A stretch of 34,016 nucleotides of DNA from an uncultured Prevotella sp. (lineage in GTDB: Bacteria; Bacteroidota; Bacteroidia; Bacteroidales; Bacteroidaceae), in assembly GCA_946540105.1 (NCBI GenBank), contig CAMNIA010000005.1, positions 1 through 34,016 on the forward strand, given 5' to 3'. How positions within the stretch are numbered: position 1 is the first letter of the stretch; every line of letters starts with the position of its first letter. Below are positions 5,101-34,016 of the stretch, one piece after another. The notes under the pieces are model-generated. The model was not told where the DNA came from. It was given only the letters and a program-made list of their open reading frames with translations, and ran no database searches. Position numbers and translations under genes: made by a program.

Positions 5101-5270
5101 GTCTCAGCATTAGCGCCTGTGTAGTTTGCAATGACACGTACGGTAGGCGGTGCGATTTCCGGAAACTGTTCCAAGGCAAGGCGTGAGAGTCCTAGTAGTC
5201 CGACGAGGACTATGAGCACGCTGATGACACATGCCAGGATAGGTCGGTCGATAAAAGTTCTGACTTTCAT
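2130..5270 (-). CDS. RND (HAE1-type) efflux transporter permease
   Basis: 1046 aa; MKVRTFIDRPILACVISVLIVLVGLLGLSRLALEQFPEIAPPTVRVIANYTGANAETV, typical AcrB-like architecture. Confidence 0.95.
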   Translation of the reverse strand: MKVRTFIDRPILACVISVLIVLVGLLGLSRLALEQFPEIAPPTVRVIANYTGANAETVQKSVVVPLEEAINGVEGMMYMSSSASNTGRASISVFFRQGTDPDMAMVNVQNRAATVQGRLPSDVVKSGLTVRKRQTSNIKQITLYSPDDSFDRTFLANYTKINIEPRLSRIPGVGEVNVMGADYSMRIWLNPQKMAAYGLTPADITKVIDQQNVEIATGTLGQDSDNTFQYVLKYRGRYEEETDYKNMVIRSLPNGDVLRIGDVAKVELGPQSYDFIGETNGHPGINVSINQTSGSNANEIIKQIDREVEDIRQTLPPGIVIEDLESKKDYLDASILSVLETLIEALLLVIVVVYIFLQSFRSTFIPAVAIVVSLIGTLAAIYAIGFSLNMLTLFALVLVIGTVVDDAIVVVEAVQAKFDEGYTSPYEATVQAMHGITSALVTTTLVFMAVFIPVTFIPGVTGTFYTQFGITMAIAVAISLLNAMTLSPALCALIMTPHEVDKTNDQDRNRKLSFSSRFHIVFATAFTALASKYKTAVSKTFRRKWLIALLVAVAVVVLGVFIKTTKTGLVPNEDMGTIFINVQAAPGSTLQQTYSIMQNIEQRISDIPQLRTYSLVAGSSVGFDQSASNGNFTLKLKKWSERTAKGDDVQSVMDEIYRRTADISNAKIQVNTQNMLPGFGRINGFEVHVQDKKGGNINDLLTFTNRFIAALNDRPEISRAYTNFSLKYPQYRVEVDAARCLRHGVAPSDVLQALGGYVGGIYASNFVRFTKLYRVMVQAEPQFRLDEQSLNNIFVRNAEGNMAPIAEYLTLTRIYGSETLSRFNLFPSIAVSGTPAEGYSTGQAIQAIRQVAKTVLPEGYGYEFGGMTREEASAENTTTAVFVLCIVFIYLILCALYESLFIPLAVILSVPFGLAGSFLFARLWGLENNIYMQTGLIMLIGLLSKTAILLTEYASERRRQGMSITAAALSAAAVRLRPILMTSMTMVFGLLPLALASGVGANGNQSLGVGTIGGMLIGTIALLFVVPPLFVVFQALEERLLPRKKH

Positions 5271-6361
5271 ATCTCGACACCCTCCTTCAGTAGTCCAGCA
5301 CCCTCGCCGATGATAACGTCACCCTTTGTGAGACCCTTTTCTACAATATATTCCTTGCCGTTGTTCAGTCGGAACACCTCGACAGGTGTCGCCTTCGTTT
5401 TTCCATTCACTACGCGATAGACGAAGGTACGGTTTTGGAGTTCGTAAGTGGCAGTTTGCGGAATGACAATGCAATTATTCTTGTATGTAGGAAGGAGTAC
5501 GGTAGCATTGGCCCCATTTCGTAATAGTTTCTCAGGATTAGGGAATACCGCCCTCAAGGTGACAGCGCCTGTGGTGGCATCGACAGTGCCACTGACAGCA
5601 TCAATACGTCCTTTATGTTCATAAACAGATCCGTCAGGCAGTTGCAGTTCTACCGCAGGTGTTTGCTTGACAAATTGTTCCAGACTGCCGTATTGCTGCA
5701 CCAAAGCCATTGTTTGCGTTTCAGTAATGGAGAAATAGGCATAGACCTCATGGTCATCAGCCACCGTTACCAATGGCTGTGGAATGTTACTGCTCACGAG
5801 TGCTCCTACATGGTATGGAATCATGGATGCCGACCCGCTGACAGGGCTTTTCACTTCGGTGTATCCCAGGTTGTTGCGCGCATTGACTTCCTGTGCTTTC
5901 GCCAGTGCCAGAGCCGCTTTAGCCTCATTGAGTTCATGGAGTGCTTTCTGCACCGTATAATCGCTGATAACCTGCCCCGCTTGGAGTGTGAGGCTGCTCT
6001 CATATTCCATCTGTGCCGTAGCCAGTTTGGCCTTAGCCGTCTCCACATTGGCTGCCGCCACTTTAAGCGCAGCCTGATAAGGCACTTGGTCGATGATGAA
6101 AAGCGTTTGTCCCTTTGTGACCCGCTGCCCTTCGTTGATAGCTATGCGTGTAATGGTTCCGCTCACTTGGGGGCGAACCTCAACAATCTGGCACCCTGTG
6201 AGTCGGGCTGTATAAGGAGACTTCAGAGTCAGATTGCTCAGTGTCACATTGAGCGTTTTATATTGGGCCTTTTCAGGGTGTTGCTGTTTGCCTCTCCCGC
6301 CACATGCGTAAAGTAGGAAGGTTAATGCGGTGAGTAGGAAAAGGAGGAGTTTAGCTTTCAT
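5267..6361 (-). CDS. RND efflux periplasmic adaptor (MFP) lipoprotein
   Basis: Start at internal Met MKAKLLLFLLTALTFLLYACGG (lipobox); VEVRPQVSGTITRIAINEGQRVTKGQTLFIID adaptor motif; 4-bp ATGA overlap with permease. Confidence 0.93.
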   Translation of the reverse strand: MKAKLLLFLLTALTFLLYACGGRGKQQHPEKAQYKTLNVTLSNLTLKSPYTARLTGCQIVEVRPQVSGTITRIAINEGQRVTKGQTLFIIDQVPYQAALKVAAANVETAKAKLATAQMEYESSLTLQAGQVISDYTVQKALHELNEAKAALALAKAQEVNARNNLGYTEVKSPVSGSASMIPYHVGALVSSNIPQPLVTVADDHEVYAYFSITETQTMALVQQYGSLEQFVKQTPAVELQLPDGSVYEHKGRIDAVSGTVDATTGAVTLRAVFPNPEKLLRNGANATVLLPTYKNNCIVIPQTATYELQNRTFVYRVVNGKTKATPVEVFRLNNGKEYIVEKGLTKGDVIIGEGAGLLKEGVEI

Positions 6362-6393
6362 GCCATTTCTTTTATTTAAGTATGTTATCGTGG

Positions 6394-6401
6394 CAAAAGT
6401 A
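6394..6401 (-). promoter_or_regulatory. -7 box (TACTTTTG) upstream of RND operon
   Basis: Matches TAnnTTTG; no clear -33 TTG at the right distance. Confidence 0.4.
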
Positions 6402-6456
6402 ATCATTTTTTCTGTAAAAGCCACACACTTTTCGTTAATGTTCCAAAAATAATAAA

Positions 6457-7249: not shown

Positions 7250-8101
7250 ATGAAGAAGATATTTGTTATTGTCATAGGCCTATTGAGCCTATTGGCCTGT
7301 CAGCAAAAAGGAAACAGCACAAGTGACAATGTGCCAAGACGGGTTTGCGACTCGCTGAACCGCATTATAGAGTTGAAGAATAACGAGATGAACGACATGA
7401 TGGGAACTCTGAATGACATCGAAGAGGGTTTCCGTGCCATCAATGCCGCAGAACAGCGTGTCACCATCGCAAAAGAAGGCGAGGGCACCTCGCAAAAGGA
7501 GCGAATTCGGGAGAACATGGAGTTCATCACCGAGCAGATACAGCAAAACCGCGAACTCATCAACAAGTTACGCAATCAAGCGCGCCAAAGTACCATAAAA
7601 ACCGATCAACTACGGCGTACGCTTGACAACTTATCACGTCAATTGGAAGAGAAAGATGCCCAGTTGAGTCTGTTGCAGGCAGAACTGGAAGCCAAGAATC
7701 TGCAAATAGGCGAGTTGAACACACAGTTGACCGACCTTTCTTCCGATGTCAAGACGCTGCAAGAAGAGTCGAGCCAGAAGTCGCAGACCATCACTACCCA
7801 GGACAAACAGCTCAACACGGCATGGTTTGTCTTTGGCAACAAGAAAGAGTTGAAAGACCAACACATTCTGGAAAACGGTGAGGTTCTGCGCTCGAACTTC
7901 AACCGCGACTATTTCACCAAGATAGACATCCGCATAGACAAGGAGATACGCCTATATAGCCGTTCGGCCAAGATATTAACGGCACACCCTGCAGGAAGCT
8001 ATATGCTCACGCAGGATGCCAACAAGCAATACATACTACGCATCACCAATCCGCAGCAGTTTTGGTCAACCAGCAAGTATCTTGTGGTCTTGGTGAAGTA
8101 A
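7250..8101 (+). CDS. Predicted lipoprotein with coiled-coil region, function unknown
   Basis: MKKIFVIVIGLLSLLACQQ lipobox; long Q/E/L-rich heptad region; ORF start at 7241 also possible. Confidence 0.75.
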   Translation: MKKIFVIVIGLLSLLACQQKGNSTSDNVPRRVCDSLNRIIELKNNEMNDMMGTLNDIEEGFRAINAAEQRVTIAKEGEGTSQKERIRENMEFITEQIQQNRELINKLRNQARQSTIKTDQLRRTLDNLSRQLEEKDAQLSLLQAELEAKNLQIGELNTQLTDLSSDVKTLQEESSQKSQTITTQDKQLNTAWFVFGNKKELKDQHILENGEVLRSNFNRDYFTKIDIRIDKEIRLYSRSAKILTAHPAGSYMLTQDANKQYILRITNPQQFWSTSKYLVVLVK

Positions 8102-8107
8102 GAGGAA

Positions 8108-8142
8108 TGATGTTTGATGTATGATGTTTGATGTTTGAAGTT
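8108..8142. repeat. Tandem heptamer array TGATGTT x5
   Basis: TGATGTT TGATGTA TGATGTT TGATGTT TGAAGTT in the convergent spacer. Confidence 0.9.
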
Positions 8143-9803
8143 TAATAATTAAAAGAAGAGCCTCCAAGGAACTCTCTCAGCAAAGAGGTTGGTGGTATTT
8201 GCTCTTCGGAAATTGGCTTTATATATCTCAGGAACTTGCGTAAGCGGTAGGCTTCGGCAAACTCTTCGCTGTTTTCGTACACCTGCTCCAACAGCGGCTC
8301 TGCCTGTCGCTTAATGACAGCCAGTTCAAATAACATGGCAGAGTTGAACATGGCATCAGCATTTTCCTGAAAAGGAAATATCCAACGGTTTTCACCTTTA
8401 CGGACACTAGGCCACCGATGGATCGTTTCCTGCGCTGAAACACCCCGATACTTATAGTCACGGATTATACGCCTAAGCAGTCGGTTGTCGGTGGTTGGTA
8501 CATAGTTGTGGTTATCAAGCAGTATCGTGGTTAGGGCAGAAGCGTAAACACGGAAAATCTGTTCATCGGGAATATCGCTAGTCAGTTCTGGATTTAAGGC
8601 GTGGATGCCCTCAACCACCAGAATTTCATTGCCCTTTAGCTTCAGTTTCTTTCCACTCTTCTCACTTTTCCCCTGTTGGAAATTATAGCGGGGAAGTTCC
8701 ACTTCTTCACCTCTGAAAAGCGCATTCAACTGTTCGTTCAGTAGCGGAAGGTTCAAAGCATGCAGGTGTTCAAAGTCATATTCGCCAGCCTCATCCTTAG
8801 GAGTTAGCTCTCGATCGAGGAAGTAGTCGTCAAGGGATATGCCGATAGGCTTCAACCCGTTGACGGCAAGTTGAACTGACAGACGTTTACACGTTGTCGT
8901 CTTGCCACTGGAGGACGGACCTGCTATCAGCACCATTTTCGTACCTTTTCTATTAGCAATCTCGTCGGCAATCTGAGCTATCTTCTTCTCCTGTAAAGCC
9001 TCACTAAGCTGAATCAACTCATTGGTACGGCCGGCATCGATAGCTTCATTCAAATCACCCACGGTACGCATGCCAAGTATTCCCTGCCAGCGGTGATGCT
9101 CTTTAAAGATTTCAAACATTTTATCCTGTCGCACGAATGTTCCCAACTTTGAAGGGTCTTCCATTGAAGGGATACGCAACAGGACACCATCGTAGTAGCA
9201 TTCCAGACCGTAAAGGTATAGCTGACCCGTCGAGGTAAGCATGGAGCCATAATAATAGTCGGGATAGCCATCAATATCGTAGTAAGTGGTATAGAGTGAG
9301 ACCAAACCCTCCAATAATTTCACCTTCGAGAAAGAACGCAGCTTTCGGAACATGCTTATAGCTTCCTCGGTAGTTGTCTCATGCCGATGGATGGGGATGT
9401 CGGCATCGATAATCTGTTTCATGCGCTGACGCAGTGCATTGACATCATCTGGAGTGACGGGACGATCCAGGCGCAGGTCGACATAATAACCATTTGACAC
9501 TGGGATGTCAATGACCACAGTGCATTCAGGCCATAAGTCGTGGGCAGCCTTGTTGAGTACAAAGAAAAGACTGCGTGTATATGCACGAATGGCTGAAGGG
9601 TCATGTAAATCAAGGAATTCAATATCCTTGGGTTTATAGACACGATAATGCATTCCCTCTACCTTATTATTGACTCGTGCGCTAATCGGTCCATATTGCA
9701 TTTTAAGGCCTAAAAGCGAAAAAATTTCAGAAAGTGTGGTTCCGATGCTTATATTTAAAGTTTTTTTATTATTTTTGCAACGGATTTTAACTTGTTGTTC
9801 CAT
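8142..9803 (-). CDS. Nucleoside kinase (TGS-like N-terminus + PRK/uridine kinase domain)
   Basis: MEQQVKIRCKNNKKTLNISIGTTLSEIFSLLG N-terminus; Walker A VLIAGPSSSGKTTTCKRL; LVVEGIHALNP. The longer track start at 10112 is rejected. Confidence 0.88.
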   Translation of the reverse strand: MEQQVKIRCKNNKKTLNISIGTTLSEIFSLLGLKMQYGPISARVNNKVEGMHYRVYKPKDIEFLDLHDPSAIRAYTRSLFFVLNKAAHDLWPECTVVIDIPVSNGYYVDLRLDRPVTPDDVNALRQRMKQIIDADIPIHRHETTTEEAISMFRKLRSFSKVKLLEGLVSLYTTYYDIDGYPDYYYGSMLTSTGQLYLYGLECYYDGVLLRIPSMEDPSKLGTFVRQDKMFEIFKEHHRWQGILGMRTVGDLNEAIDAGRTNELIQLSEALQEKKIAQIADEIANRKGTKMVLIAGPSSSGKTTTCKRLSVQLAVNGLKPIGISLDDYFLDRELTPKDEAGEYDFEHLHALNLPLLNEQLNALFRGEEVELPRYNFQQGKSEKSGKKLKLKGNEILVVEGIHALNPELTSDIPDEQIFRVYASALTTILLDNHNYVPTTDNRLLRRIIRDYKYRGVSAQETIHRWPSVRKGENRWIFPFQENADAMFNSAMLFELAVIKRQAEPLLEQVYENSEEFAEAYRLRKFLRYIKPISEEQIPPTSLLREFLGGSSFNY

Positions 9804-9822
9804 AGACGATAGTTTTAGATGC

Positions 9823-9830
9823 GGCAAAGT
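9823..9830 (-). promoter_or_regulatory. -7 box TAACTTTG upstream of nucleoside kinase
   Basis: Reverse complement of caaagtta, about 20 nt upstream of ATG 9803. Confidence 0.5.
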
Positions 9831-9873
9831 TAGCGAAAAAATAAAAAATAAAGAAACAAAAAAATAAAAAACT

Positions 9874-11622
9874 ATGTCAATCTGGGTTATTTTTACGTTA
9901 CTGGGCTCATTAGCACTCCTCATGTACGGAATGAAGTCTATGAGTGAGGCTCTCCAGAAGATGGCTGGTCCGCAATTGCGACACGTTCTTGGTGCTATGA
10001 CTACCAACCGCTTTACAGGCATGCTTACGGGAATGTTGGTCACAGCTAGTGTACAATCTTCGACGGCAACCACGGTGATGACGGTCTCGTTTGTCAATGC
10101 GGGACTGCTCACATTGGCTCAGGCCATCTCCGTCATTATGGGAGCTAACATTGGTACAACACTGACGGCATGGATTATGTCGGCAGGTATGTCTTTTGAT
10201 GTTAGCCAGTTGTCCTATGTGGCTTTCTTCTTAGGTATTATCCTCATCTATCAGAAGAAATACCGCTATATTGGAGATTTCCTGTTCGGATTGGCATTTC
10301 TGGTCTTTGCGCTTTCCATACTACGTACAACAGGTCAGAATATGAATTTAGGGGAGAACGAGGCACTGCTGTCTTTCTTCTCCAGCTTCGATCCCAACTC
10401 GTTCTGGACCACACTGACATTCCTCTTACTGGGTGGAATCATGACCTTCTGTGTCCAGTCTTCTGCAGCCGTCATGGCTATCACCATGATTCTGTGTTCC
10501 AGTGGTGCACTGCCCATCTATCAAGGTATCGCACTAGTTATGGGAGAAAACATTGGAACCACTGTTACCTCTAATCTTGCAGCCATGTCAGCCAACACGC
10601 AGGCTCGCCGTGCCGCTTTAGCCCACATGTTCTTCAACGTCTTCGGCGTTATTTGGATTCTCTTTGTTTTCCGTCCATTTATTGACATGGTATGTGGATG
10701 GGTTGGCTATGATACCACACTGACCGTAGATGGTGCTGGCAAAGCCGCTTTCCTGGAAAATGCTGCCAAGCTGAGTTTCGTATTGGCTGCCTTCCACACT
10801 GCCTTCAATGTAGCTAATACCTTTATCTTAATATGGTTCATCCCACAAATAGAGAAATTTGTATGTTGGGTCATCAAATCGAAGAAGGTGGACGAGGAGG
10901 AAGACTTCCGGCTGCATTTCATCACTGCTGGTTTCATGAAGACTCCCGAGCTTTCAGTACTTGAAGCCCAGAAGGAGATACAGTCGTTTGCCAGCCGTAT
11001 GCAGCGCATGTTCGGAATGGTGCGTGAACTGCTGACTCTTTCCAGCAGTGCTACCGATAAAAAAGACAATCAGGCCGGCGACTTCAACAATCTCTATACG
11101 CGTATTGAAAAATATGAAGGCATCAGTGACAACATGGAACTGGAGATAGCCAAATACCTAGACTCCGTCAGTGATGCGCACCTCTCTGATGAGACTAAAG
11201 CCAAGATTCGCGCCATGCTACGTGAAATCTCAGAGTTGGAGTCTATCGGTGATGCTTGCTATAACATGGCACGCACCATTAGTCGGAAATATAACGGCAA
11301 GCAAGACCACTTTGTTGATCGCCAGTATGACCACCTGCATCAGATGATGGAACTTACTGACCAGTCGCTCACCGAGATGAATCGCCTGTTGGGAGGACGC
11401 AAGGACTCGTACGACATCAACCGGTCTTTCAATATTGAAAACGAAATCAACAACTACCGCAACCAGTTAAAGTCGCAGAATATCAACGACATCAATAATC
11501 ACGAGTACACCTATGCCGTAGGTACTATCTACATGGATATCATCAACGAGTGCGAAAAGCTGGGCGACTATGTAGTTAACGTTGTTGAAGCACGTATGGG
11601 TACACGCCAGAAAAACATGTAA
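9874..11622 (+). CDS. Na/Pi cotransporter family protein with C-terminal PhoU-like domain
   Basis: LYGMKSMSEALQKMAGPQLRHVLGAMTTNRFTGMLTGMLVTASVQSSTATTVMTVSFVNAG; duplicated QSSA repeat; helical C-terminus. Confidence 0.93.
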   Translation: MSIWVIFTLLGSLALLMYGMKSMSEALQKMAGPQLRHVLGAMTTNRFTGMLTGMLVTASVQSSTATTVMTVSFVNAGLLTLAQAISVIMGANIGTTLTAWIMSAGMSFDVSQLSYVAFFLGIILIYQKKYRYIGDFLFGLAFLVFALSILRTTGQNMNLGENEALLSFFSSFDPNSFWTTLTFLLLGGIMTFCVQSSAAVMAITMILCSSGALPIYQGIALVMGENIGTTVTSNLAAMSANTQARRAALAHMFFNVFGVIWILFVFRPFIDMVCGWVGYDTTLTVDGAGKAAFLENAAKLSFVLAAFHTAFNVANTFILIWFIPQIEKFVCWVIKSKKVDEEEDFRLHFITAGFMKTPELSVLEAQKEIQSFASRMQRMFGMVRELLTLSSSATDKKDNQAGDFNNLYTRIEKYEGISDNMELEIAKYLDSVSDAHLSDETKAKIRAMLREISELESIGDACYNMARTISRKYNGKQDHFVDRQYDHLHQMMELTDQSLTEMNRLLGGRKDSYDINRSFNIENEINNYRNQLKSQNINDINNHEYTYAVGTIYMDIINECEKLGDYVVNVVEARMGTRQKNM

Positions 11623-11654
11623 ACGACAAGTGACAAACAAAATAACAAGGCATC

Positions 11655-14600
11655 ATGAAGAAGCTATTTTTATTAAGCACGCTGTTGCTGATAACTTTAA
11701 ATAGTATGGCGCAGGTGACCTCTTCTGGCATCAACGGCAAGGTGTCGGACGGAAAAGAAGACATCATCGGAGCTACCATCACAGCACGGCACGTACCAAC
11801 AGGAGCGGTCTACTATGCCGTCACGAACATTGATGGAGTATATTCTATTACCGGAATGAAGGCAGGCGGTCCTTATGAGGTAGAAGTTTCCTATATAGGA
11901 TACCGTACTACAAAGTTTACGGACATCCAACTTCAGTTGGGACAGAACACCGTACTTGATGCCCTCATAACGGAAGACAGTCAGCAGCTCAATGAGATTG
12001 AGGTGGTGGCAGCGACACGCAACACCATGCGCTCTGACCGCTCCGGAGCCGTCACCAGCATGAACCTGCAGCAGATGAGCACCGTGCCGACCATCGGACG
12101 CTCCATGACGGACCTGATGAAGATGATGCCACAGTCGGCAGCAAACGGTGTCTCCGTCGGAGGAGGTAACTTCCGCCAGTCTAATGTTACTATTGACGGA
12201 GCCTCGTTCAACAATGCCTTCGGCCTTGACGAGACATTATTACCGGGTGGCGGTACCCCTATCTCGCTCGATGCACTGGAGCAGATGACCATCTCGGTCA
12301 CCCCCTACGACGTACGTCAGAGCGGATTCACGGGAGGTGGCATCAATGCTGTCACACGCAGCGGTTCCAACGAGTTCAAGGGTTCTGCCTATACCTACAT
12401 CACTAGCACCAGCCTGAAGGGCGCTCGTGTAGGCGACACATCGCTTCCTGTCACTAATGGACGCAACGACACCTATGGTTTTACCCTCGGCGGTCCCATT
12501 CTCAAGGACAAGCTCTTCTTCTTCGTCAATGCTGAAATAGAGGACAATAAGACTGAAGGTCCTATGGCACGTGCGGGAGACGGCGGTACGACCTTCTCTA
12601 ATACCAGCCGACGCCCGTTGCTGAAAGAACTGGAGAGCCTCTCCGACTATCTCCGCAACACCTATGGACTGGAGACCGGTCCGTGGCAGGAGTACAGCGT
12701 CAAGACCCCGGCCTATCGCATTCTGGCACGTCTGGACTGGAACATCAACGACAATCATAAGTTCAATATCCGCTTCTCCAAGTCCAACCGTAAGAAAAGC
12801 AATCCCGCCACTATATCGCGCACCATAGGGAGCAGCCAGGAGACAGCGATTTATAATGGTAGCCGCAATAACTATGGCAGCAACACGAATTACGGGATGT
12901 CCAGTTTCTCGAGCCGCTATTATTCCGAATTCCGCTTTACCACTTTTGCTGCTGAGCTGAACAGCACTTTCGGACAATGGCGGAACACGCTTCGCGGCAC
13001 GTGGTCCTTTCAGGACCAGCCTCGTTCCAACGAATACGGCCTCTCTATTCCTGTCATCGAGATTGTGATGAGCGACGGCCAGTCGCCCGCCCACTATCCG
13101 ACATGGGCAATGACGGGCGACCTCTATTCCTATGGCAATGTGGCACAGACCAAGACTACCGTCATCACTGACGAGCTGAATGTTACCATTGGCAAGCACA
13201 ACCTCTTTGCCGGCATTCAATATGAGCATAACTACGCCTCCAACGGCTACGCGCAGGCTGCCGCAGGATACTATGCCTATGAAGCCACGCCCCAGCAGGT
13301 CGCCACCGGTCAGTGGGCAGCTATCTTCAACGCGCCTCCCCGCGTCTTCGGTATAACCTATGGCAACGATACCAATCACTCTATGTACACGGCTGAGATG
13401 AAGACCAACCAGTGGTCATTCTACATTCAGGACAACATTGCCCTCTCAGACCGTTTCCGCATGTCTGCCGGCGTGCGATTTGAGCTGCCGTCGTATCCGT
13501 CGCTCGCCAACTGTTATAATCCCGATTACTATGCCCTCGACTTTGGCGGTCAGCACTTCCGTACCGACAACACGCCAACAACGAGCCTGTCATTCTCGCC
13601 TCGAGTGGGCTTCAATTGGGACATACTGGGTGACCGCCGCTACATCCTGCGCGGTGGTTCTGGCGTGTTTGTAGGACGCCTGCCTTTTGTGTGGCTTGTC
13701 TCGGCTGTGCTTAACTCCGGCATGGGTCAGACCTCCTACGTAGCCACCAACAGTAATGGCAAGGTGAAGCCGTCCTTCACCATGAGCCAGCAGGACATGC
13801 TGCAGCAGATTAACGCTCAGGCATCGACCTCCGTGCCCAGTGGCCCTACCATCCTGAGTGACAACTTACGCATGCCCAAGACGTGGAAATCGTCGCTGGC
13901 CTTCGATGTCAGGCTGCCCTACGACATCGACTTCACCGTTGAGGGTGTTTACCAACGCGACCTCAACCCCGTTGTTGTCAGCAACAAGGACATCTATTGG
14001 GACGGCAGTTCCACCATCGACCTCGGCCACGGCGACGTACGCCACAAGATGTCGTATTACGATGCCTACCACTCCGCCTACGTGCTGGAGAATGCCGGTC
14101 GTGCTGCCTACTACGCCTCACTGAGCTTCCAGCTGCGTAAGAAGTTCGACTTCGGACTCAACCTCTCTGCCGCCTACACGCTCTCGCGTGGCAAGTCCTA
14201 CAGCGAGTGCATCGGCTCACAGGTGTCTTCCGCCTATAGCAACTACCGTCACAGCATTCATGGCGTGAACGACAATGAGACGGGCTACTCCATGTACGTT
14301 GCTCCCAGCCGCCTGCTTCTCTCTGCATCCTATAGGCTCAAAGAGGGCAAGCACTCCACATCCACTTTCAGTCTTGTCTATGACGGCTATCAGTACGGCT
14401 ACCTGAACGACTATGCCTACAGCCGTTACTCCTATGTCTTCAACAACAATGTCAACAGCGACGCCCTGGCTCCCGGCAACCTCATCTACGTGCCCGCCAG
14501 CCGTGAGGAACTGAACAGCTGGAACTTCGTCGACAACGGCACCGTCAACGGACAGACCTATACTGCCGACATGCAGCGAGATGACTTCTGGACTTACATT

Positions 14601-24518: not shown

Positions 24519-24550
24519 TTGTCACTTTTCAGATTTTTTCGTTAACTTTG
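24519..24550 (+). promoter_or_regulatory. Bacteroidetes-type promoter of DUF3467-AraC genes
   Basis: TTG (24519-24521) - N21 - TAACTTTG (24543-24550). Confidence 0.75.
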
Positions 24551-24577
24551 CACGTACTTTAATACAATTATTTCACA

Positions 24578-24895
24578 ATGAACAACGGAAACGACAATCA
24601 AAAACAGCTGCAAATAGAAATACCGCCTGAGGTAGCTCAGGGCGAGTATGCCAATTTTGCTATCATTACCCACTCCAGTAGCGACTTCTTCGTTGACTTT
24701 GCCCGTGTAATACCCGGCATCAACAAGGCACAGGTGAAGAGCCGCGTCATCTTGGCACCTGAGCACGCCAAGCGTCTGCTGGGCGCACTGCAAGAGAACG
24801 TCATGAGATATGAGCGCGAATTTGGCACCATTAAAATCCCACAGCAGAATCCGCGCACCATAGCCCCCTTCCCTAACAATAAGGGCGAGGCTTAG
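24578..24895 (+). CDS. DUF3467 domain-containing protein
   Basis: 105 aa; YANFAIITHSSSDFFVDFARVIPGINKAQVKSRVILAPEHAKRLLGALQENVMRYE. Confidence 0.88.
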   Translation: MNNGNDNQKQLQIEIPPEVAQGEYANFAIITHSSSDFFVDFARVIPGINKAQVKSRVILAPEHAKRLLGALQENVMRYEREFGTIKIPQQNPRTIAPFPNNKGEA

Positions 24896-24900
24896 CCGTC

Positions 24901-26022
24901 ATGTTGAAATCGCTGCTCATAGCGCTACCCATGCTGGTATGCGGCATCTTTACGGTGGAGCTCCTGCTTAGCTGGCTCCACAAAAAAGATGTCTCACAAG
25001 GTTGGTTGTCGCTTTGGGCTTTGGTTGCGACGCTGTTGTATGGCGGTCACTTCTTTTATTTTCACCATAGTACGAGCTGGATACCCTTGAGCGACAGTAT
25101 CTATATTGCCTGTAATCTGGCTGTCTATCCGTTGTACTTGGTGTACATCAGCACCCTCACCGACAGCCGCCCCTTTAGCAAGCAACCTTTAATGCTGACT
25201 TTACTCCTTGGTCCTGCCGTGCTTTTGGGTATTGCGGCGGCATTCCTCTACACACAGATGACGGAACGTGAGACGGCAACTTTTATCAGTAGCTATCTCT
25301 ATCAGGGAGTTTACCAGGACCTGCAGGGACTGCCCTTAGCACAGAGCATCATCCACGTCACTGCTCATCTGGTCTTTGCCGTACAGGTCGTTGCAGTTAT
25401 GGTGACAGGTATCCGCAAGATTCATCGCTACAACCGACAGCTGAAATACCTCTACGCAGATACGGAAGACAAAGAACTGGCAGGCATTACCGTCATTCTG
25501 TGGCTGTTTGTCGCTACTTCACTGATCTCGGTGTTTGTCAACGCCATCGGGCGCGAACACTTCTGCGACACTTTACAGTTAGCATTTGTGTCTGTTGTCT
25601 TCTCTACCCTACTCTTTAGCATCGGATGGATTGGATTGCACACCTACTCTCTTGCAATAGAGATGAATCAAGACGCTGCACCGCTGGAGCCACAGCCGGC
25701 AGAAGCGCTGACGAGTTCCGACTCGTACATACTGGCCATGCAGTTTGACCAACTGATGAACAGCGAACAGATATACCTGAAACACGACTTGCGACTGGAT
25801 GCTATAGCACGGCGGCTAGGCACCAACCGTACCTATCTGTTAGCCGCACTGCGTCAGGAAATGGACACCACGTTCAACGAGTACGTCAACCGCAAGCGCA
25901 TCAACTTTGCACGCCAACTGATGACGAACAATCCGTCAATGTTGAAGTCTGAGATTGCCGCACGCGCAGGCTACAACTCGATGTCGGCATTCTACCGCAA
26001 CCTGAAAACATTTAACGACTAA
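24901..26022 (+). CDS. Membrane-anchored AraC-family (multi-TM + HTH) transcriptional regulator
   Basis: Hydrophobic helices in N-terminal ~240 aa; C-terminal LRLDAIARRLGTNRTYLLAALRQEMDTTFNEYVNRKRINFARQLM. Confidence 0.85.
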   Translation: MLKSLLIALPMLVCGIFTVELLLSWLHKKDVSQGWLSLWALVATLLYGGHFFYFHHSTSWIPLSDSIYIACNLAVYPLYLVYISTLTDSRPFSKQPLMLTLLLGPAVLLGIAAAFLYTQMTERETATFISSYLYQGVYQDLQGLPLAQSIIHVTAHLVFAVQVVAVMVTGIRKIHRYNRQLKYLYADTEDKELAGITVILWLFVATSLISVFVNAIGREHFCDTLQLAFVSVVFSTLLFSIGWIGLHTYSLAIEMNQDAAPLEPQPAEALTSSDSYILAMQFDQLMNSEQIYLKHDLRLDAIARRLGTNRTYLLAALRQEMDTTFNEYVNRKRINFARQLMTNNPSMLKSEIAARAGYNSMSAFYRNLKTFND

Positions 26023-26113
26023 TTATTGTCTTTTTCGTTCGCCTTCTTTCTGACTACTCACACGCAGTGAACAGTCGGAAATCAAGACCTAATTTGTAAA
26101 TTATACGTAGGTT

Positions 26114-26146
26114 TTGCAAATATGGGAATAGGAATTGCAAAAATGC
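26114..26146. promoter_or_regulatory. Candidate regulator binding site: 12-bp direct repeats spaced 21 bp
   Basis: TTGCAAATATGG (26114) and TTGCAAAAATGC (26135), 21 bp start to start. Confidence 0.4.
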
Positions 26147-26170
26147 AACACGCCATACCTTTTATATTAT

Positions 26171-26178
26171 TAACTTTG
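26171..26178 (+). promoter_or_regulatory. -7 box TAACTTTG upstream of surface gene cluster
   Basis: TAnnTTTG match; no TTG at canonical -33 distance. Confidence 0.5.
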
Positions 26179-26235
26179 CGAAAGTATTGGAAAAACTACG
26201 CAAAGAAACTAAATTCTAAGTAAACATCATAAGCT

Positions 26236-27951
26236 ATGAGAAAGGCAAGACTTTTACCTATATTGTTACTATTTGTGGCAGGAGGCGTGAATGTGCAGGC
26301 TCAGGAAGAAGACCTGCGGAAAGACTTTGAGAACTACCGCAAAGGAGCGCATAAGGACTATGACGACTTCCGCAAGCAGGCGCTGATGGAGTATAGCGAC
26401 TTCGTACGCCAGGCGTGGAAGAAATTTGGTGCTGAGCCTGCCGTTCCCGTTCCCCAAGAGGAAGAGATTTTCCCGATGCTCGCCCCAGGTGCCGACCAAG
26501 AGACGGCATCGTGGTTTGGCAGACAGATGGACAAGCTGAAGAACATGTTCAAGAAGAAGGGTAAGAAAGTACCCGACCAGCTAGCACAGGTAGAACAGCT
26601 GCAGAACCAGCAAAAGGCCGAAGAGAAGAAGAAGGAAAAGAAAAACAAGAAGGAAAAAGCTGAAGAGAAGAAGGAGAAAGCTGAGCAGCAGAAGCCTGAG
26701 GCGAAAAAACCTGTCCAGATGGCTGTCAAGCAAGTCATCCAGCCTGCACCCCTCATCAAGCAACCGGAACCGTTGGCTGAAGTCAAGCAGGATAAATTTC
26801 TGGAGAACGATTACGTTGAATTCAGGGTTTTTGGCACTTTATGCAAGGTGCGCATCGGCGAGAACTGCCGTTTTAAACTCAACGGCATCACTTCCGACGA
26901 AATTGCTGACATCATCCGCGACGAATTCCCCAAGACACAGTATGACAACCTGCTATACGACTGTCTGCAGGAGCGCAAGCACCACGACTTGTCGGACTGG
27001 GCATATTACCAGATGCTGCTGACACTAACGCGCAAGTTCTACGGCGAAAACAGCAACGAAGGAACGCTGGTGCTGGCTTTCCTCTACTCGCAGTCAGGCT
27101 ATAAGATGCGTATAGCACACGACGACAGCAACCTATACATGTTGGCTGCCACACGCCACTTCATCTACAACAAGTCCTTCTACTACATGGACGGCGAGTG
27201 GTTTTTCCTGCTTGACGGTCGCAAAGCCGAGAAACTGTCGGTCTGTCAGGCTGGTTTCCCAAAGGAAAGCTCACTGTCACTTCAGATTTCGGCGGCACAG
27301 CGTTTAGACATGAATCCTACTGGCGAGCGTACCATCACCTCCATCAAGAATCCTGACTTCACGTTTACACTTCACTCGAACAAAAACTACCTCGACTTCT
27401 ACGAGACCTATCCCTCGTCGAACATCGACAACAACTTCATGACGCGATGGGCGATTTATGCCAACACGCCACTGGAGAAAGGCATTCGCGACCAACTCTA
27501 TCCGCAGATGAAGGAGAAACTTCAAGGACTCTCCGAACTGGAGGCTGTACAGCAGATGCTGTGGTGGCTGCACGGCAGACTGGACCTCGAAGGCAGCATT
27601 AGCAATTCCGACACCTTCCTGTACCGCTACGACGAAGACTGCTGGGGTGAAGACCGCGCCTTCTTTGGCGAGGAAACGCTATTCTACCCCTACTGCGACT
27701 GCGAGGACCGCTCCATTCTGCTCTCGCATCTGGTACGCGACCTCTTAGGACTCGATGTCATCCTCGTCTACTATCCAGGACATCTGGCAATGGCAGTCGG
27801 TTTCAACGAGCCAGTAGAAGGCGACTTCATCATGCTCGACGGACGGAAGTTCATTGTCTGCGACCCCACCTATATCGGTGCTAGAGTCGGCGAGACGATG
27901 CCAATCGTAAACAACGACGATGCCACCGTCATTCTGTTACAGAAATCATAA
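26236..27951 (+). CDS. Secreted transglutaminase-like protein with N-terminal 11-aa repeats and K/E-rich linker
   Basis: Signal peptide; repeats KDFENYRKGAH/KDYDDFRKQAL/MEYSDFVRQAW; C-terminal CDCEDRSILLSHL...YYPGHLAMAVGF...VCDPTY. Confidence 0.75.
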   Translation: MRKARLLPILLLFVAGGVNVQAQEEDLRKDFENYRKGAHKDYDDFRKQALMEYSDFVRQAWKKFGAEPAVPVPQEEEIFPMLAPGADQETASWFGRQMDKLKNMFKKKGKKVPDQLAQVEQLQNQQKAEEKKKEKKNKKEKAEEKKEKAEQQKPEAKKPVQMAVKQVIQPAPLIKQPEPLAEVKQDKFLENDYVEFRVFGTLCKVRIGENCRFKLNGITSDEIADIIRDEFPKTQYDNLLYDCLQERKHHDLSDWAYYQMLLTLTRKFYGENSNEGTLVLAFLYSQSGYKMRIAHDDSNLYMLAATRHFIYNKSFYYMDGEWFFLLDGRKAEKLSVCQAGFPKESSLSLQISAAQRLDMNPTGERTITSIKNPDFTFTLHSNKNYLDFYETYPSSNIDNNFMTRWAIYANTPLEKGIRDQLYPQMKEKLQGLSELEAVQQMLWWLHGRLDLEGSISNSDTFLYRYDEDCWGEDRAFFGEETLFYPYCDCEDRSILLSHLVRDLLGLDVILVYYPGHLAMAVGFNEPVEGDFIMLDGRKFIVCDPTYIGARVGETMPIVNNDDATVILLQKS

Positions 27952-27974
27952 CAAATCAATTATTTAGAATACTC

Positions 27975-29525
27975 ATGAGAAAAAGACTTTTAACACTGTC
28001 TCTACTTTGCGCAGTCGCTGTGACTTACACAATGGCTCAAGGTATGAAAGTAGTAGAATTCAAGCTTCTGGAGAATGACCTTACTGCCAATACACACGGC
28101 ACGTCGAAACAAGACCAGAACGGCGAGACGGCAGCACTCATCAAAATTCAGACACCAGAGCGCGGCTTTACTTTCGACGGAGGCTCGCTGGGCATCGTAG
28201 CTACCGAGGAACATGCCGGTGAAATCTGGCTTTATGTGCCCCGCCGGGCCCAGAAACTCATCGTTCAGCATGCCGCCTTTGGCGTGATGCGCGACTTCTT
28301 CTACCCCATACCCATAACGGGTGGACGAACCTACGAGATGCTGATTGACATTGGTACGGGTCGCTACGCCACCATCACGTCACAGAAGGCCGGCTCGGAG
28401 ATATACATTGACGGAACACCTGCAGGCAAGGCTCCCGTCTACAACAAATACCTGAACTACGGCAAACACGTCATCGCCGCCAAGAAAGACCGCTATGAAG
28501 GCGAGACTGAGATTTATGTCACCACCAACGATGACAGCAAGAAGGCACGCGTCATCAATGTTGAACAACGCGACATGAGCGACCACTTCGGCAATGTAGA
28601 GGTGAGCGTTGACAACAAAGCCGACATCTGGTTCGAAGGCAAGAACGTGGGTAACGGCAAGTGGGAAACGCAGCTGCGCGAAGGCAACTACGTCGTGGAA
28701 ACACGTAAGGCCGACTGCGACCCTGTCAAGACGTCGTTCACCGTCGTGAAACAACAGCATAACAGCATCAAAGCTGCTGCGCCTACGCCCCACACTGGTG
28801 TACTCAGCGTCTATACACGTCCACGCAACGCACAAGCCACCATCAACGGCAGCCAAGTCATCGACATGACAGAAGCACACACACTGCCTATTGGCACCTA
28901 CCAGCTGGCATTCAGCCGCAAAGGCTATGTACCGAAGAATCAGGAGTTCACAGTCCGTCATAACGAGACTACGCGCGACACCGTAACACTCGAACGTATC
29001 AAATACATCAAACCCAATACCTTCTATTTCGGCGCAGGCTACAGCATCCGACAGCTGGGCGGTATCACAGCGCTGGTAGGCGCTACCTACAAGAACTACG
29101 ACCTGCAGGTAAGCTACACCTTCGGATTAGGCAAGTCGGATAACGTGCATTGGTACTCCACCGACGGCAAGGACACCTATCTCAGCACCATGACATACAA
29201 GCGCTCAACACTCGCCGTCAAGGCTGGTTACCAGTTTGAGCTGACTGAGCGTCTGGGCATCACACCACAAGTGGGTGTTGAGTTCGAACGCTTGTCGGGC
29301 ACTGTTGAGCAGGGAACCAATACCTATGGTGATGGCGCAACCGCCACCTGCATCAGTTTGGGAGCCAAGCTGCTGTTTGCTCCTGTCGAACGCTTCTACG
29401 CCTTTGTCAACCCGGCTTTCTCTATCGCGGCTAAGAAGGACGACAACTTCACGAAGATAGCTGACGCCAGCGACATCAAGGCTGGTGGATTCATGATGAC
29501 TATGGGCGTCATCTTTAACTTCTAA
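27975..29525 (+). CDS. PEGA domain protein with C-terminal outer-membrane beta-barrel-like region
   Basis: GSEIYIDGTPAGKAPVYNKYLNYGKHVIAAKKDRYEG and further PEGA-like repeats; C-terminal aromatic strands ending GVIFNF. Confidence 0.75.
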   Translation: MRKRLLTLSLLCAVAVTYTMAQGMKVVEFKLLENDLTANTHGTSKQDQNGETAALIKIQTPERGFTFDGGSLGIVATEEHAGEIWLYVPRRAQKLIVQHAAFGVMRDFFYPIPITGGRTYEMLIDIGTGRYATITSQKAGSEIYIDGTPAGKAPVYNKYLNYGKHVIAAKKDRYEGETEIYVTTNDDSKKARVINVEQRDMSDHFGNVEVSVDNKADIWFEGKNVGNGKWETQLREGNYVVETRKADCDPVKTSFTVVKQQHNSIKAAAPTPHTGVLSVYTRPRNAQATINGSQVIDMTEAHTLPIGTYQLAFSRKGYVPKNQEFTVRHNETTRDTVTLERIKYIKPNTFYFGAGYSIRQLGGITALVGATYKNYDLQVSYTFGLGKSDNVHWYSTDGKDTYLSTMTYKRSTLAVKAGYQFELTERLGITPQVGVEFERLSGTVEQGTNTYGDGATATCISLGAKLLFAPVERFYAFVNPAFSIAAKKDDNFTKIADASDIKAGGFMMTMGVIFNF

Positions 29526-29575
29526 CCTTTCTCCTTAAATTATATAGTATACTCATAACATAAGACACTTAAGAT

Positions 29576-31006
29576 ATGAAGACCAAGAATATCATCATCA
29601 TGCTGGCCGCACTACCCCTCGTGGCAGGCTTCACAGGATGTAAGTCGGACGACGAGACCTCAGCTCGACCTGCTAAGGAGACGCTGATAGTGCAAGGTGG
29701 CGACATCACCTTCTCCAGCACTGAGGAGAAGAAGTACGTAGCCATCAATGCCGACTGCGCCTGGCACGTGGTCGACTTCCAAGTAAGCGATGCATCTGGA
29801 AATATTGATACCGATAAGTCACAACGCGGTGATTTCGGCGACAAACTGTCGGTGGAACCAATGCGCGGCAACGGCAACGGCACACTCATCATCAACATCA
29901 ACAAGAACAGCGGCACGCTGAAGCGTGGCAACGCATACATCATCCTACAGTCCGACGGCGGTCTGCGCCAACGCGTCAACATCACACAGCTCAGTAATGA
30001 CCCAGGCATGAGTATCGACGGCACTTCTGACGGCGGTCTTGACTTCACAATGGCTGGAGGCGATAAGACGTTGACTATTGAGAGCAATACCGCATGGACC
30101 GTAGAGACAAAGTATGACGGTCTCACCAGCGACTGGATCACGTTGAGCAAGGCAGCAGGAAGCGGCAACGACTTCATCACAGTCACCACCACTGCCGAGA
30201 CTACAGGACAAAACCGCGAGGCTACCCTTTTGTTTAAGTATGACAACAAGGTTGCCAACGTAATTGTACGCCAAGGTGCCAAGACCGACATCACGCTGTC
30301 GCTTGACAAGCAAGGCATACTCTTTACCGCTTTTTATATTCCGGAAGAACATTATGAGTTCGAGAGAGAACACATACAAGAACACTGGGAGAGTCAGACC
30401 GTCAAGGTAACATCCAATGCCAGCTGGTCAGTCAATGTCATTACGAACGATACAGAGTCGTGGCTCAAGGTCGACCGTACCAACGGAATCGGTAACGGTG
30501 AATTCAGCGTCGCATGTAACGCTATGACAACGAACACACAGGGCAAACAGGCTGTTATCGTGGTTGTTGCAGGCAACAAAGCAAGCTACCTATTCATCAG
30601 TCAGGCAGTAGAGGGCTATAGTGTTGACCAACTCACTGTCACGACACTTTACTCGATGTCCGTCTTCAACGACTATGCCAACTTCCGCTTCGACTTTGTC
30701 AATGGGCAACAGGGCAGCAACCAGCCGACTGGTGAGTATGGTGTCGTATACAGTACGGAATACACTGAACCCACTGTTGACAATGGCACCAAAGTGGTTG
30801 CCGGTAGTGGCAAGACTTCAGGTAGCGTAGCAGTAGAGGTTAAGAACCTTCAACCCTCCACCAAGTACTACGTCCGTGGCTTTGTCTATAGCGGCAATGG
30901 TGTAAAGTACACGCCCAACACGGTAACCATCACCACATCAGGCAGCTCCAACCAGCCAGGCGAGAGCGACAACCCAGACCCGCAGCTGGCTCGTCAACAC
31001 TACTAA
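29576..31006 (+). CDS. BACON domain surface lipoprotein with C-terminal FN3-like domain
   Basis: MKTKNIIIMLAALPLVAGFTGCKSDDE lipobox; BACON-like repeats (KTLTIESNTAWTVET...WITLSKAAGSGNDFITVTTTAET); LQPSTKYYVRGFVYSGNG. Confidence 0.82.
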   Translation: MKTKNIIIMLAALPLVAGFTGCKSDDETSARPAKETLIVQGGDITFSSTEEKKYVAINADCAWHVVDFQVSDASGNIDTDKSQRGDFGDKLSVEPMRGNGNGTLIININKNSGTLKRGNAYIILQSDGGLRQRVNITQLSNDPGMSIDGTSDGGLDFTMAGGDKTLTIESNTAWTVETKYDGLTSDWITLSKAAGSGNDFITVTTTAETTGQNREATLLFKYDNKVANVIVRQGAKTDITLSLDKQGILFTAFYIPEEHYEFEREHIQEHWESQTVKVTSNASWSVNVITNDTESWLKVDRTNGIGNGEFSVACNAMTTNTQGKQAVIVVVAGNKASYLFISQAVEGYSVDQLTVTTLYSMSVFNDYANFRFDFVNGQQGSNQPTGEYGVVYSTEYTEPTVDNGTKVVAGSGKTSGSVAVEVKNLQPSTKYYVRGFVYSGNGVKYTPNTVTITTSGSSNQPGESDNPDPQLARQHY

Positions 31007-31039
31007 GATATTCATTTGGTCAACTTAAAAGATGTCAAC

Positions 31040-34016
31040 ATGAATTATTATCAAATATATAAAAAATCGCGGTTTCTCTTGCTAGTAGCGATGCTACTTT
31101 CTGTGTCGTGGATTCATGCACAGAATGAAGAGATATTTGCCGTGGAGCAGAATCAGGAGATAACCCCAAATCAACCTATTACTGCAACACGGAGCGTTAC
31201 CATAACACCAGGTCTTGACTCTGCGTGGCTTACGGACATGTCGATGGGCAGTGCGTGGGTGAATCCATTGGAGTTTATTGCGAGTATTTATTACCCCAGT
31301 TCAACTACGACATACACGTTCGTGAACAGTATGCGTGGTACAAACAACCCGAAGGATGGCGAATTGCAGACTGATGGGACAACTGGAGGCTCTGGCTATA
31401 AGCCTGAGTCTATGAACCTACCTCGTTGCGGCGGTTACGTTGTCTTTGAACCCCAACAAGATGGATCTCTAATTGTCCCCATCCGTGTCTTCACAAATAA
31501 GCCTCTATTTGTTACCGATGGAAATGGCAAAGCCAAGACTGACATCCAGTTCAAGGATGCCAGCGGTCAGACATATACGCTGTTGACAACAACCCTTTGT
31601 GCAGTTTCAGATACTGAAGACGTGACGGGATTCGTATCGTTTAACGTCACTAAAGGTGAGAAGTATTATGTGTTTAGCACAGGTTCTAAGGCACGTTTTG
31701 GTGGCTGTGTCTTCTCTACGGAGACCATCGAGATAGACCCTGCCACAATGAAGGATGTGAAGGATATCCTCGAAGGTGCCACAGCCACTACAGCAGAGCC
31801 CTATGCCGTACTGAGCGACAACAATACTGTGCTGACATTCTACTATGATGACCAAAAAGAGTCAAGAGGCGGTATGGATGTTGGACCGTTTTCAAGTACT
31901 ACTGACAGGATGTGGCATAGTTATAGAGAAAGTATAACCTCTGTCGCTTTTGATGCATCTTTTGCTGACTATACACAGTTGACCAGTACTGCCATGTGGT
32001 TCTATGACTTTACAAATATGAACACAATAAGTGGCTTAAGCAATCTTAAGACTAACAATGTGACGAGTATGTATAGTATGTTTGGTAACTGTACTAGTTT
32101 GCGAAGTCTTGACATCAGTGGCTTAAATACTGCTAATGTAACCAATATGGAAAGTTTGTTCTCTGGCTGTTCTGCATTGACTAGTATAAATCTGACAGGC
32201 ATCAATACGGCCAACGTAACAAACATGGGTTTCATGTTTAATGGATGTTCATCGATTAACGAACTTGATCTGTCAGGATTTAATACTTCCAATGTCACTA
32301 CGATGGTTGCCATGTTCTTTGGTGACTCCCAACTTAAAACTATCTACGTGAGTAATTTGTGGAATGTAGAAAATGTCATCAGCCACAGTAATCTATTTAG
32401 CAACGAAGTCCCCGCTCCCATACGACGTGCGCTGCCAGAGGATAGTGGTGAAAGGTTGTTTGAAAATTGTGAGTTACTTGTGGGAGGAAAAGGTACTTCC
32501 TACAACGCTAATCACGTGAATGTAGATTATGCCCACATTGACGGAGGCGAAAATAACCCTGGCTACTTTACTGATGTCAATACTACTGCTGACAATGACC
32601 TGGAGATTTTTGTCATTGACTCTAATTCCACATTTACATCCGGTGAATCGATTACACCTACTCCGAGCATTGTGCTGACTCCCGGAAATAACACAGAATG
32701 GTTAGTTAACGACTATTTGGGTTTCGATTCTCAGAGGAGTTCAATAGATTTTGCTGCCAATACTTATTATCCCAATAAGACCTTAACTAAGACTTTTTCT
32801 AGGAGCATGTGTGGAACAGACAATCCTGTAGATGACAACGGTTCATCGTATGTTCCACAAGACAAGAATTTGCCTTCTTTAGGTAGTTACTTCATCTTCG
32901 AACCCAAGCAAGACGGTTCGCTGATTCTTCCCGTCTCCATTAATGCCTCAAAGCAGCTCTTTGTGACTGACGGAAATGGAAATATCAACACAGACATTCA
33001 GGTAAAGAATGCTAACGGTCAGACTTTGAGGATGCTCGCTTCGCCCTTGTGTGCATTCTCGGATATGGTCACAAATGGCTTTATATCTATGAACGTCAAG
33101 CAAGGTCAGAAATACTATGTCTTCTGCACTGGCTCTAAGATGCATTTAGGCGGCTATGTGTTCTCGACAGAGGCCATAGAGATTGATTCTGGCACCATGT
33201 CGAATGTAAAGGATGCACTTGCTGGCAGTACTGAGCCTTACGCTATTTTGGCCGACAATACGCTAACATTCTACTATGACAACCAAAGGTTCGCCAAAAA
33301 CGGAATGAGTGTCGGACCATTTACAAATCAATCAGAACGAGAATGGAGTAATCAAACACAAAGTATCACTACGGTTGTTTTCGATGCTTCGTTTGCTAAT
33401 TGCACTACAGTGAATAGTACGGCTTATTGGTTCGATGGTTGTTCTACACTTACATCCATTCGTGGTATAGATAATCTGAAAACTGACAATGTGACGAACA
33501 TGGAATCTATGTTCAACTCCTGTTCCAGTTTGACAAGTCTTGATTTGAGAAGCTTCAATACTGCAAATGTAACGGACATGGCAGGCATGTTCGCACTTTG
33601 TTCCAGTTTGACAAGTCTTGATTTGAGCAACTTCAATACTGCCAATGTGACTAACATGAGAAGAATGTTTTATGATTGTTCTGGCTTGACGGGTCTTCAT
33701 TTAAGTAATTTTAATACAGGTAAAGTGAAATACATGGACAGTATGTTCCAGAACTGTTCCAATATAACAACCATCACCGTTGGTGAAGGATGGACAGTTG
33801 AGAATCTTCAAATCGGCAAGCAAATGTTTTTGAATTGTACTAGCCTTAAAGGTGGAGCTGGAACTACTTATGATGCAAGTCATGTTGACCACACCTATGC
33901 CCATATTGACGGCGGTGAGAACAACCCGGGTTACTTCACTGATGCCAATGCTAGCACGGAACCGACGTTCGACTACAATGGTGTGCTGACGGTTAATGGT
34001 CAAACGACGATGCAAG
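31040..34016 (+). CDS. BspA-like/DUF285 26-residue-repeat surface protein, truncated by window end (not in ORF track)
   Basis: Continuous frame from ATG 31040 to the edge (992 codons, no stop seen); signal peptide MNYYQIYKKSRFLLLVAMLLSVSWIHAQ; repeats such as FNTANVTNMRRMFYDCSGLTGLHLSN. Confidence 0.9.
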   Translation, partial: MNYYQIYKKSRFLLLVAMLLSVSWIHAQNEEIFAVEQNQEITPNQPITATRSVTITPGLDSAWLTDMSMGSAWVNPLEFIASIYYPSSTTTYTFVNSMRGTNNPKDGELQTDGTTGGSGYKPESMNLPRCGGYVVFEPQQDGSLIVPIRVFTNKPLFVTDGNGKAKTDIQFKDASGQTYTLLTTTLCAVSDTEDVTGFVSFNVTKGEKYYVFSTGSKARFGGCVFSTETIEIDPATMKDVKDILEGATATTAEPYAVLSDNNTVLTFYYDDQKESRGGMDVGPFSSTTDRMWHSYRESITSVAFDASFADYTQLTSTAMWFYDFTNMNTISGLSNLKTNNVTSMYSMFGNCTSLRSLDISGLNTANVTNMESLFSGCSALTSINLTGINTANVTNMGFMFNGCSSINELDLSGFNTSNVTTMVAMFFGDSQLKTIYVSNLWNVENVISHSNLFSNEVPAPIRRALPEDSGERLFENCELLVGGKGTSYNANHVNVDYAHIDGGENNPGYFTDVNTTADNDLEIFVIDSNSTFTSGESITPTPSIVLTPGNNTEWLVNDYLGFDSQRSSIDFAANTYYPNKTLTKTFSRSMCGTDNPVDDNGSSYVPQDKNLPSLGSYFIFEPKQDGSLILPVSINASKQLFVTDGNGNINTDIQVKNANGQTLRMLASPLCAFSDMVTNGFISMNVKQGQKYYVFCTGSKMHLGGYVFSTEAIEIDSGTMSNVKDALAGSTEPYAILADNTLTFYYDNQRFAKNGMSVGPFTNQSEREWSNQTQSITTVVFDASFANCTTVNSTAYWFDGCSTLTSIRGIDNLKTDNVTNMESMFNSCSSLTSLDLRSFNTANVTDMAGMFALCSSLTSLDLSNFNTANVTNMRRMFYDCSGLTGLHLSNFNTGKVKYMDSMFQNCSNITTITVGEGWTVENLQIGKQMFLNCTSLKGGAGTTYDASHVDHTYAHIDGGENNPGYFTDANASTEPTFDYNGVLTVNGQTTMQ
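33521..33627 (+). repeat. Exact 29-bp direct repeat, 78-bp period, within DUF285 repeats
   Basis: tgttccagtttgacaagtcttgatttgag at 33521 and 33599. Confidence 0.95.

Follow-up and report, generated by a model that had tools for sequence, protein, structure and literature searches.

The nearest precedent for the gene clusters described here is a caspase-CHASE2 fusion reported in a cyanobacterium (PMC3501461). The prokaryotic caspase (metacaspase) operons share with our loci the linkage of CHASE2 to a cysteine enzyme and the organization into multigene operons, but here the cysteine enzyme is an exported transglutaminase-like protein accompanied by F8, LPP20-like proteins, a PEGA barrel, and surface proteins, and the window locus itself has neither CHASE2 nor a caspase. 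A lipoprotein export signal of the Bacteroidetes has also been described (PMC5080379), and our locus has in common with the Sus-like surface lipoprotein systems a surface-type lipoprotein with a C-K-acidic N terminus. In contrast to those systems, it has no SusC or SusD, and its predicted barrel is an OmpA-type eight-strander carrying PEGA domains, not a TonB-dependent channel. The PARCEL/DUF285 surface repeat proteins (PMC2996958) contain a repeat that is identical in kind (TIGR02167, DUF285) to the one encoded here, but the Bacteroidales copies are tied to a PEGA-BACON operon and have relatives with type 9 secretion-like tails; Bacteroides, Prevotella, and Porphyromonas do not appear in the main text of the PARCEL paper. 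Members of the transglutaminase/papain-fold superfamily (PF01841, PF04473; 3isr, 4xz7, and 3kd4) share a Cys-His-Asp triad and a predicted core fold with the enzyme of this locus, which differs from them by a large extra N-terminal region, a K/E-rich linker, and a genomic context that is unseen in described members.

Gene layout and transcription of the locus

The window, the whole stretch of DNA that was analyzed, is an entire contig of 34,016 bp (G000:C5) from an uncultured Prevotella genome of 1.38 Mb that is 56% complete, and the loci that it matches carry mostly Prevotella and other Bacteroidales names. Its last four genes encode a predicted exported transglutaminase-like protein (26236–27951, 571 amino acids), a predicted PEGA-domain outer-membrane protein (27975–29525, 516 amino acids), a BACON surface-type lipoprotein (29576–31006, 476 amino acids), and a DUF285/PARCEL secreted repeat protein (31040..34016, at least 992 amino acids). 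An initial annotation of this DNA had placed all of these genes on the plus strand with gaps of 23, 50, and 33 nt, and this layout is exact by ORF calls. The last gene starts with an ATG at 31040, in an open frame that extends from a TTG at 31016, and is cut by the contig end; because the window is the entire contig, this gene is truncated and downstream genes lie outside view. Elsewhere in the window, an AcrB-family efflux pump and an HlyD-type membrane-fusion protein are encoded at 2130–6424.

A pattern scan identified the sequence TAnnTTTG (TAACTTTG) at 26171..26178 on the plus strand, 65 nt 5′ of the enzyme start. The same pattern is found 30–65 nt 5′ of the enzyme gene in all eight members of the window's clade that are without CHASE2, and in none of three checked CHASE2-linked relatives, in which the enzyme gene overlaps CHASE2. 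This site is probably the promoter of the four-gene operon, with the features of a Bacteroidota-type −7 element. The short spacing of the genes and the presence of one promoter motif indicate that the four surface genes are probably transcribed together, as had been suggested. No clear −33 element was seen in the window's promoter region, a scan for sigma-70-type promoters gave matches no better than those in shuffled sequence, and terminator-like sites (15 versus 8.3 expected) were set aside as evidence.

The initial annotation had also assigned to the system a DUF3467 gene (24578–24895, plus strand; Pfam DUF3467, E = 2.6e-30) and a membrane AraC-type regulator (24901–26022, plus strand; Pfam HTH_18, 5.8e-13). 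Membership of DUF3467 was rejected, since this is a core gene that 93 of the 120 genus genomes carry beside other genes and that is not next to the operon in the relatives examined; no RpoC C-terminal motif lies within 1.5 kb of it. AraC family matches were found in 107 of the 120 genomes, and the ten full-length relatives examined adjoin unrelated genes. The regulator gene precedes the enzyme gene in only five loci (the window and its closest relatives L037, L041, L046, and L051), its stop is separated from the enzyme gene by 213 nt, and a −7 element of its own is conserved in front of the operon. The proposal that the regulator is part of the system was not borne out by these observations, and the AraC gene is a separate transcription unit and not a core member.

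The same data bear on whether the locus could be a glycan or mucin capture system akin to polysaccharide utilization loci, under the adjacent AraC regulator. The BACON domains, the surface-type lipoprotein, and the nearby regulator in five loci would fit such a role, but the regulator is not conserved with the operon, and neither SusC nor SusD nor any glycoside hydrolase is detected by Pfam in the set of proteins encoded at 24.5–34 kb. Assignment as a polysaccharide utilization locus was rejected because the SusC/SusD pair is absent from this set of proteins; for the same reason nutrient capture is the least likely of the explanations considered, and we regard it as very improbable.

Predicted properties of the enzyme and the surface proteins

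The protein encoded at 26236–27951 consists of a signal peptide, N-terminal helices, a K/E-rich linker, and a C-terminal core that contains the putative triad C489-H516-D543. The linker, a low-complexity segment rich in Lys and Glu that joins the N-terminal helices to the core, corresponds to window positions ∼26590–26700. In an alignment of the family, Cys-489 and His-516 are each conserved in 71 of 71 sequences and Asp-543 in 70, with Glu replacing Asp in the remaining one; a DCEDR motif and the His are invariant. The window enzyme has no meaningful match in Pfam and does not reach the gathering score of Transglut_core, 14 of 71 relatives match this model weakly (best E = 7.6e-4), and five match DUF553 weakly. 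A search of PDB sequences with the enzyme alignment matched nothing. The AF2 model of the enzyme has a pLDDT of 91.2 and a pTM of 0.87, and its top PDB fold matches in Foldseek belong to the transglutaminase superfamily (3isr, XPC, 4xz7, PNGase, and 3kd4); the best of these has a probability of 0.97 but a weak E value of 2e-2, and the top matches agree on the superfamily. The invariant triad, the weak Transglut_core and DUF553 matches of relatives, and the predicted fold thus support the earlier description of this protein as transglutaminase-like, and an enzyme of this type, with its activity predicted, is a highly likely assignment. From the signal peptide at its N terminus, recognized by inspection, the enzyme is probably periplasmic. 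It is the founder of a family that has no Pfam model and that occupies 86 Bacteroidales loci. Tandem copies of the enzyme gene are found in three loci (L057 at 8345–11602, L107, and L109).

The product of the gene at 27975–29525 contains, in order, a signal peptide, a conserved N-terminal domain, PEGA domains (PF08308; Pfam PEGA 6.8e-18, two copies), and a C-terminal eight-stranded barrel. The barrel is of the OmpA/OmpX/Ail type (Foldseek E = 5e-6 for OmpA and 5e-5 for Ail); in the AF2 model the barrel region has a pLDDT of ∼90, and the pTM of the whole model is only 0.44. With both PEGA domains and a barrel detected, this protein is predicted to be a PEGA-domain outer-membrane protein with a transmembrane β-barrel.

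The lipoprotein encoded at 29576–31006 matches Pfam BACON and BACON_2 (BACON, 7.9e-12). Its lipobox Cys is followed by KSDDE, and a C-KSD(D/E)(E) sequence is kept in most orthologues. This N terminus is export signal-like and resembles the motif described previously (PMC5080379), and surface exposure is predicted.

The product of the last gene (31040..34016) has leucine-rich-like repeats and matches both Pfam DUF285 (7.3e-51) and NCBIfam TIGR02167 (E = 5e-70). By eye, most of its intact relatives end in C-terminal tails of the type GRR..KGVYI.NGKKVIIK, which are type 9 secretion-like; the window copy lacks its 3′ end. The TIGR04183 model gave no score, and the type 9 secretion gene sprA is present in the window's genome.

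Gene neighborhoods across the Bacteroidales

Neighborhoods were collected in a genome scan that yielded 79 loci with flanks of up to 10 kb, and more genus genomes were read besides; because retrieval relied on patterns taken from the window enzyme, the counts favor near relatives. In 26 loci, a window-type PEGA gene is followed on the same strand by an adjacent BACON gene, 4–93 nt apart, and a DUF285 gene then follows in most of them. The same-strand partners in the 86 enzyme loci are LPP20S-like (41), LPP20L (26), CHASE2 (26), PEGA (25), BACON (20), DUF285 (16), caspase (13), DUF4384 (12), and F8, either as a neighbor (11) or fused (13). In eight genus genomes, all 11 of 11 window-type PEGA genes flank BACON, against 0.03 expected (a rough estimate; the loci are not independent), which excludes grouping of PEGA and BACON by chance; DUF285 genes are few in several of these genomes. 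A lack of conserved co-occurrence would have refuted the initial annotation, but the neighborhoods of relatives do show the four surface genes conserved together, and the recurrence of PEGA-BACON with DUF285 next to it argues for one conserved unit. It is very likely that 26236–34016 is the start of one conserved operon.

We considered whether two modules are merely adjacent, with a PEGA-BACON-DUF285 adhesion operon lying beside an independent enzyme gene to which it is functionally uncoupled. PEGA-BACON-DUF285 clusters are found without the enzyme (G119, G035:C3, G013:C65, G083:C24, and G083:C82), so the surface part does not require the enzyme, and the enzyme is often present without PEGA-BACON among its 86 loci. 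Yet the tight same-strand pairing of the two recurs across distant branches of the enzyme tree (the window clade, L033, L068, L074, L075/L078, and L098), and LPP20-like genes accompany both modules, even where the enzyme is missing (L158 and L164). On this evidence we consider uncoupled modules rather unlikely.

The ancestry of the window operon was examined by maximum-likelihood analysis of 93 enzyme core sequences, a quick search that left several forks unresolved. In the resulting tree, the window enzyme falls in a clade of nine with 98% support. One member of this clade, L038, has the gene order CHASE2-TG-F8-PEGA-BACON-DUF285, with CHASE2 directly 5′ of the enzyme gene; near the clade, L033 has CHASE2-TG-F8-PEGA-BACON-DUF285-LPP20L-LPP20S in a single run. 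The clade members without CHASE2 have AraC, c15, or other genes at the upstream place, and Pfam detects no CHASE2 gene beside the enzyme at the window locus; such a gene is present at 26 of the 86 loci that carry the enzyme. The enzyme gene of relatives lies 3′ of and overlaps CHASE2, is beside or fused with F8, and is near genes for LPP20-like proteins and exported caspases. The window's genome also contains an enzyme paralogue, in which LPP20S-like, DUF4384, and CHASE2 genes accompany a truncated enzyme gene (L111, G000:C85, 1–2622) that is cut at the contig edge; the upstream part of this paralogous locus is in L110, to 3233. The tree and neighborhoods make it probable that the window enzyme was derived from CHASE2-type clusters, and the distribution of TAnnTTTG among relatives with and without CHASE2 suggests that CHASE2 was lost and an own promoter gained in the window lineage.

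F8 is a small exported protein with no match in Pfam, and a weak match to an NCBIfam LapA-retention model is the only lead to its identity. Apparent F8-enzyme fusions were observed in 13 loci (L040, L042, L052, L053, L054, L059, L061, L069, L071, L075, L078, L090, and L118), and the occurrence of the F8 region within the enzyme protein suggests a functional link between the two. Other CHASE2 loci of the genus were collected with Pfam CHASE2. In Prevotella genomes without the enzyme, CHASE2 and F8 are found with a TPR-CHAT protein (L169 at 7398–13718, L171, L173, and L175); the CHAT match was tested in L169 (E = 9e-52), and the other three were judged by length, start, and context. CHASE2, a caspase, and F8 occur together in L170, L172, and L174. 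The exported status of the caspases and CHAT proteins was judged from their N termini by eye. As CHASE2 and F8 clusters elsewhere encode a caspase or a CHAT protein, the enzyme seems to occupy the caspase/CHAT place. An OmpA-type protein is encoded near the CHASE2-F8-CHAT genes of L169.

These neighborhoods could also indicate a module for envelope-stress or programmed-death signaling, in which the enzyme would be a protease effector and the surface proteins its sensors or substrates. This reading draws on the interchange of caspase, CHAT, and enzyme in CHASE2 and F8 clusters, on the cyanobacterial caspase-CHASE2 fusion (PMC3501461), and on six loci in which the enzyme occurs with c20 (L066, L073, L081, L093, L095, and L077), most of which add SIG28 and/or metacaspase C27; SIG28 is sigma factor-like by eye and has no Pfam match. 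The window locus, however, lacks CHASE2, F8, and caspase, the PADLOC defense models match none of the window proteins, and signal peptides are present on those caspases and CHAT proteins that were inspected visually, in contrast to described systems, whose effectors are cytoplasmic. We therefore judge a stress or death module to be improbable.

Proposed function and significance

As a whole, the locus is best explained as an outer membrane-spanning envelope apparatus served by a periplasmic cysteine enzyme, a reading to which we give an even chance. The specific surface-apparatus mechanism that follows is put forward tentatively. Because they lie N-terminal to the OmpA-type barrel, the PEGA domains would be periplasmic, where they may hold or guide the cysteine enzyme. 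The enzyme, in turn, would trim or crosslink envelope or surface proteins, and the BACON lipoprotein and the repeat protein would form an exterior binding layer. In the broader Bacteroidales cluster family from which this enzyme probably comes, a CHASE2 membrane sensor, F8, and LPP20-like proteins accompany an exported cysteine enzyme (transglutaminase-like, caspase, or CHAT). With its CHASE2 partner lost and its own promoter gained, the window enzyme is probably controlled by transcription and not by a sensor.

Among the open-access literature searched, we found no named system with this four-gene composition, in agreement with the initial annotation. The PEGA and BACON domains were not found together there, nor were the CHAT domain and CHASE2; co-mention of CHASE2 and transglutaminase exists, not as a system of the window type. 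The individual domains are known, and their combination and the grouping of CHASE2, F8, and a cysteine enzyme are apparently undescribed in this literature. We place at about one in three the prospect that the window operon is a distinct undescribed system. The wider cluster family to which the operon belongs is well supported as context; the biochemical function is inferred. This context of CHASE2, caspase, and LPP20 changes the interpretation of the locus and is not visible from a single window. It is conceivable, although we hold this only tentatively, that these clusters form a modular Bacteroidales envelope system, in which a CHASE2 sensor and F8 are combined with an exchangeable exported transglutaminase-like, caspase, or CHAT protein and some branches are wired to a PEGA barrel and surface proteins.

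These results provide a testable context for several exported orphan protein families in Bacteroidales of the gut and rumen (transglutaminase-like proteins, PEGA barrels, BACON lipoproteins, PARCEL proteins, and LPP20-like proteins) and link them to CHASE2, caspase, and CHAT in the envelope. Related clusters in named isolates suggest laboratory routes: Xylanibacter rodentium (L084) has enzyme, LPP20S-like, DUF4384, and caspase genes, and Parabacteroides acidifaciens (L065) has enzyme, LPP20L-like, and PEGA genes. If the proposal is true, it would describe a modular system in which a periplasmic enzyme acts on or through the cell surface.
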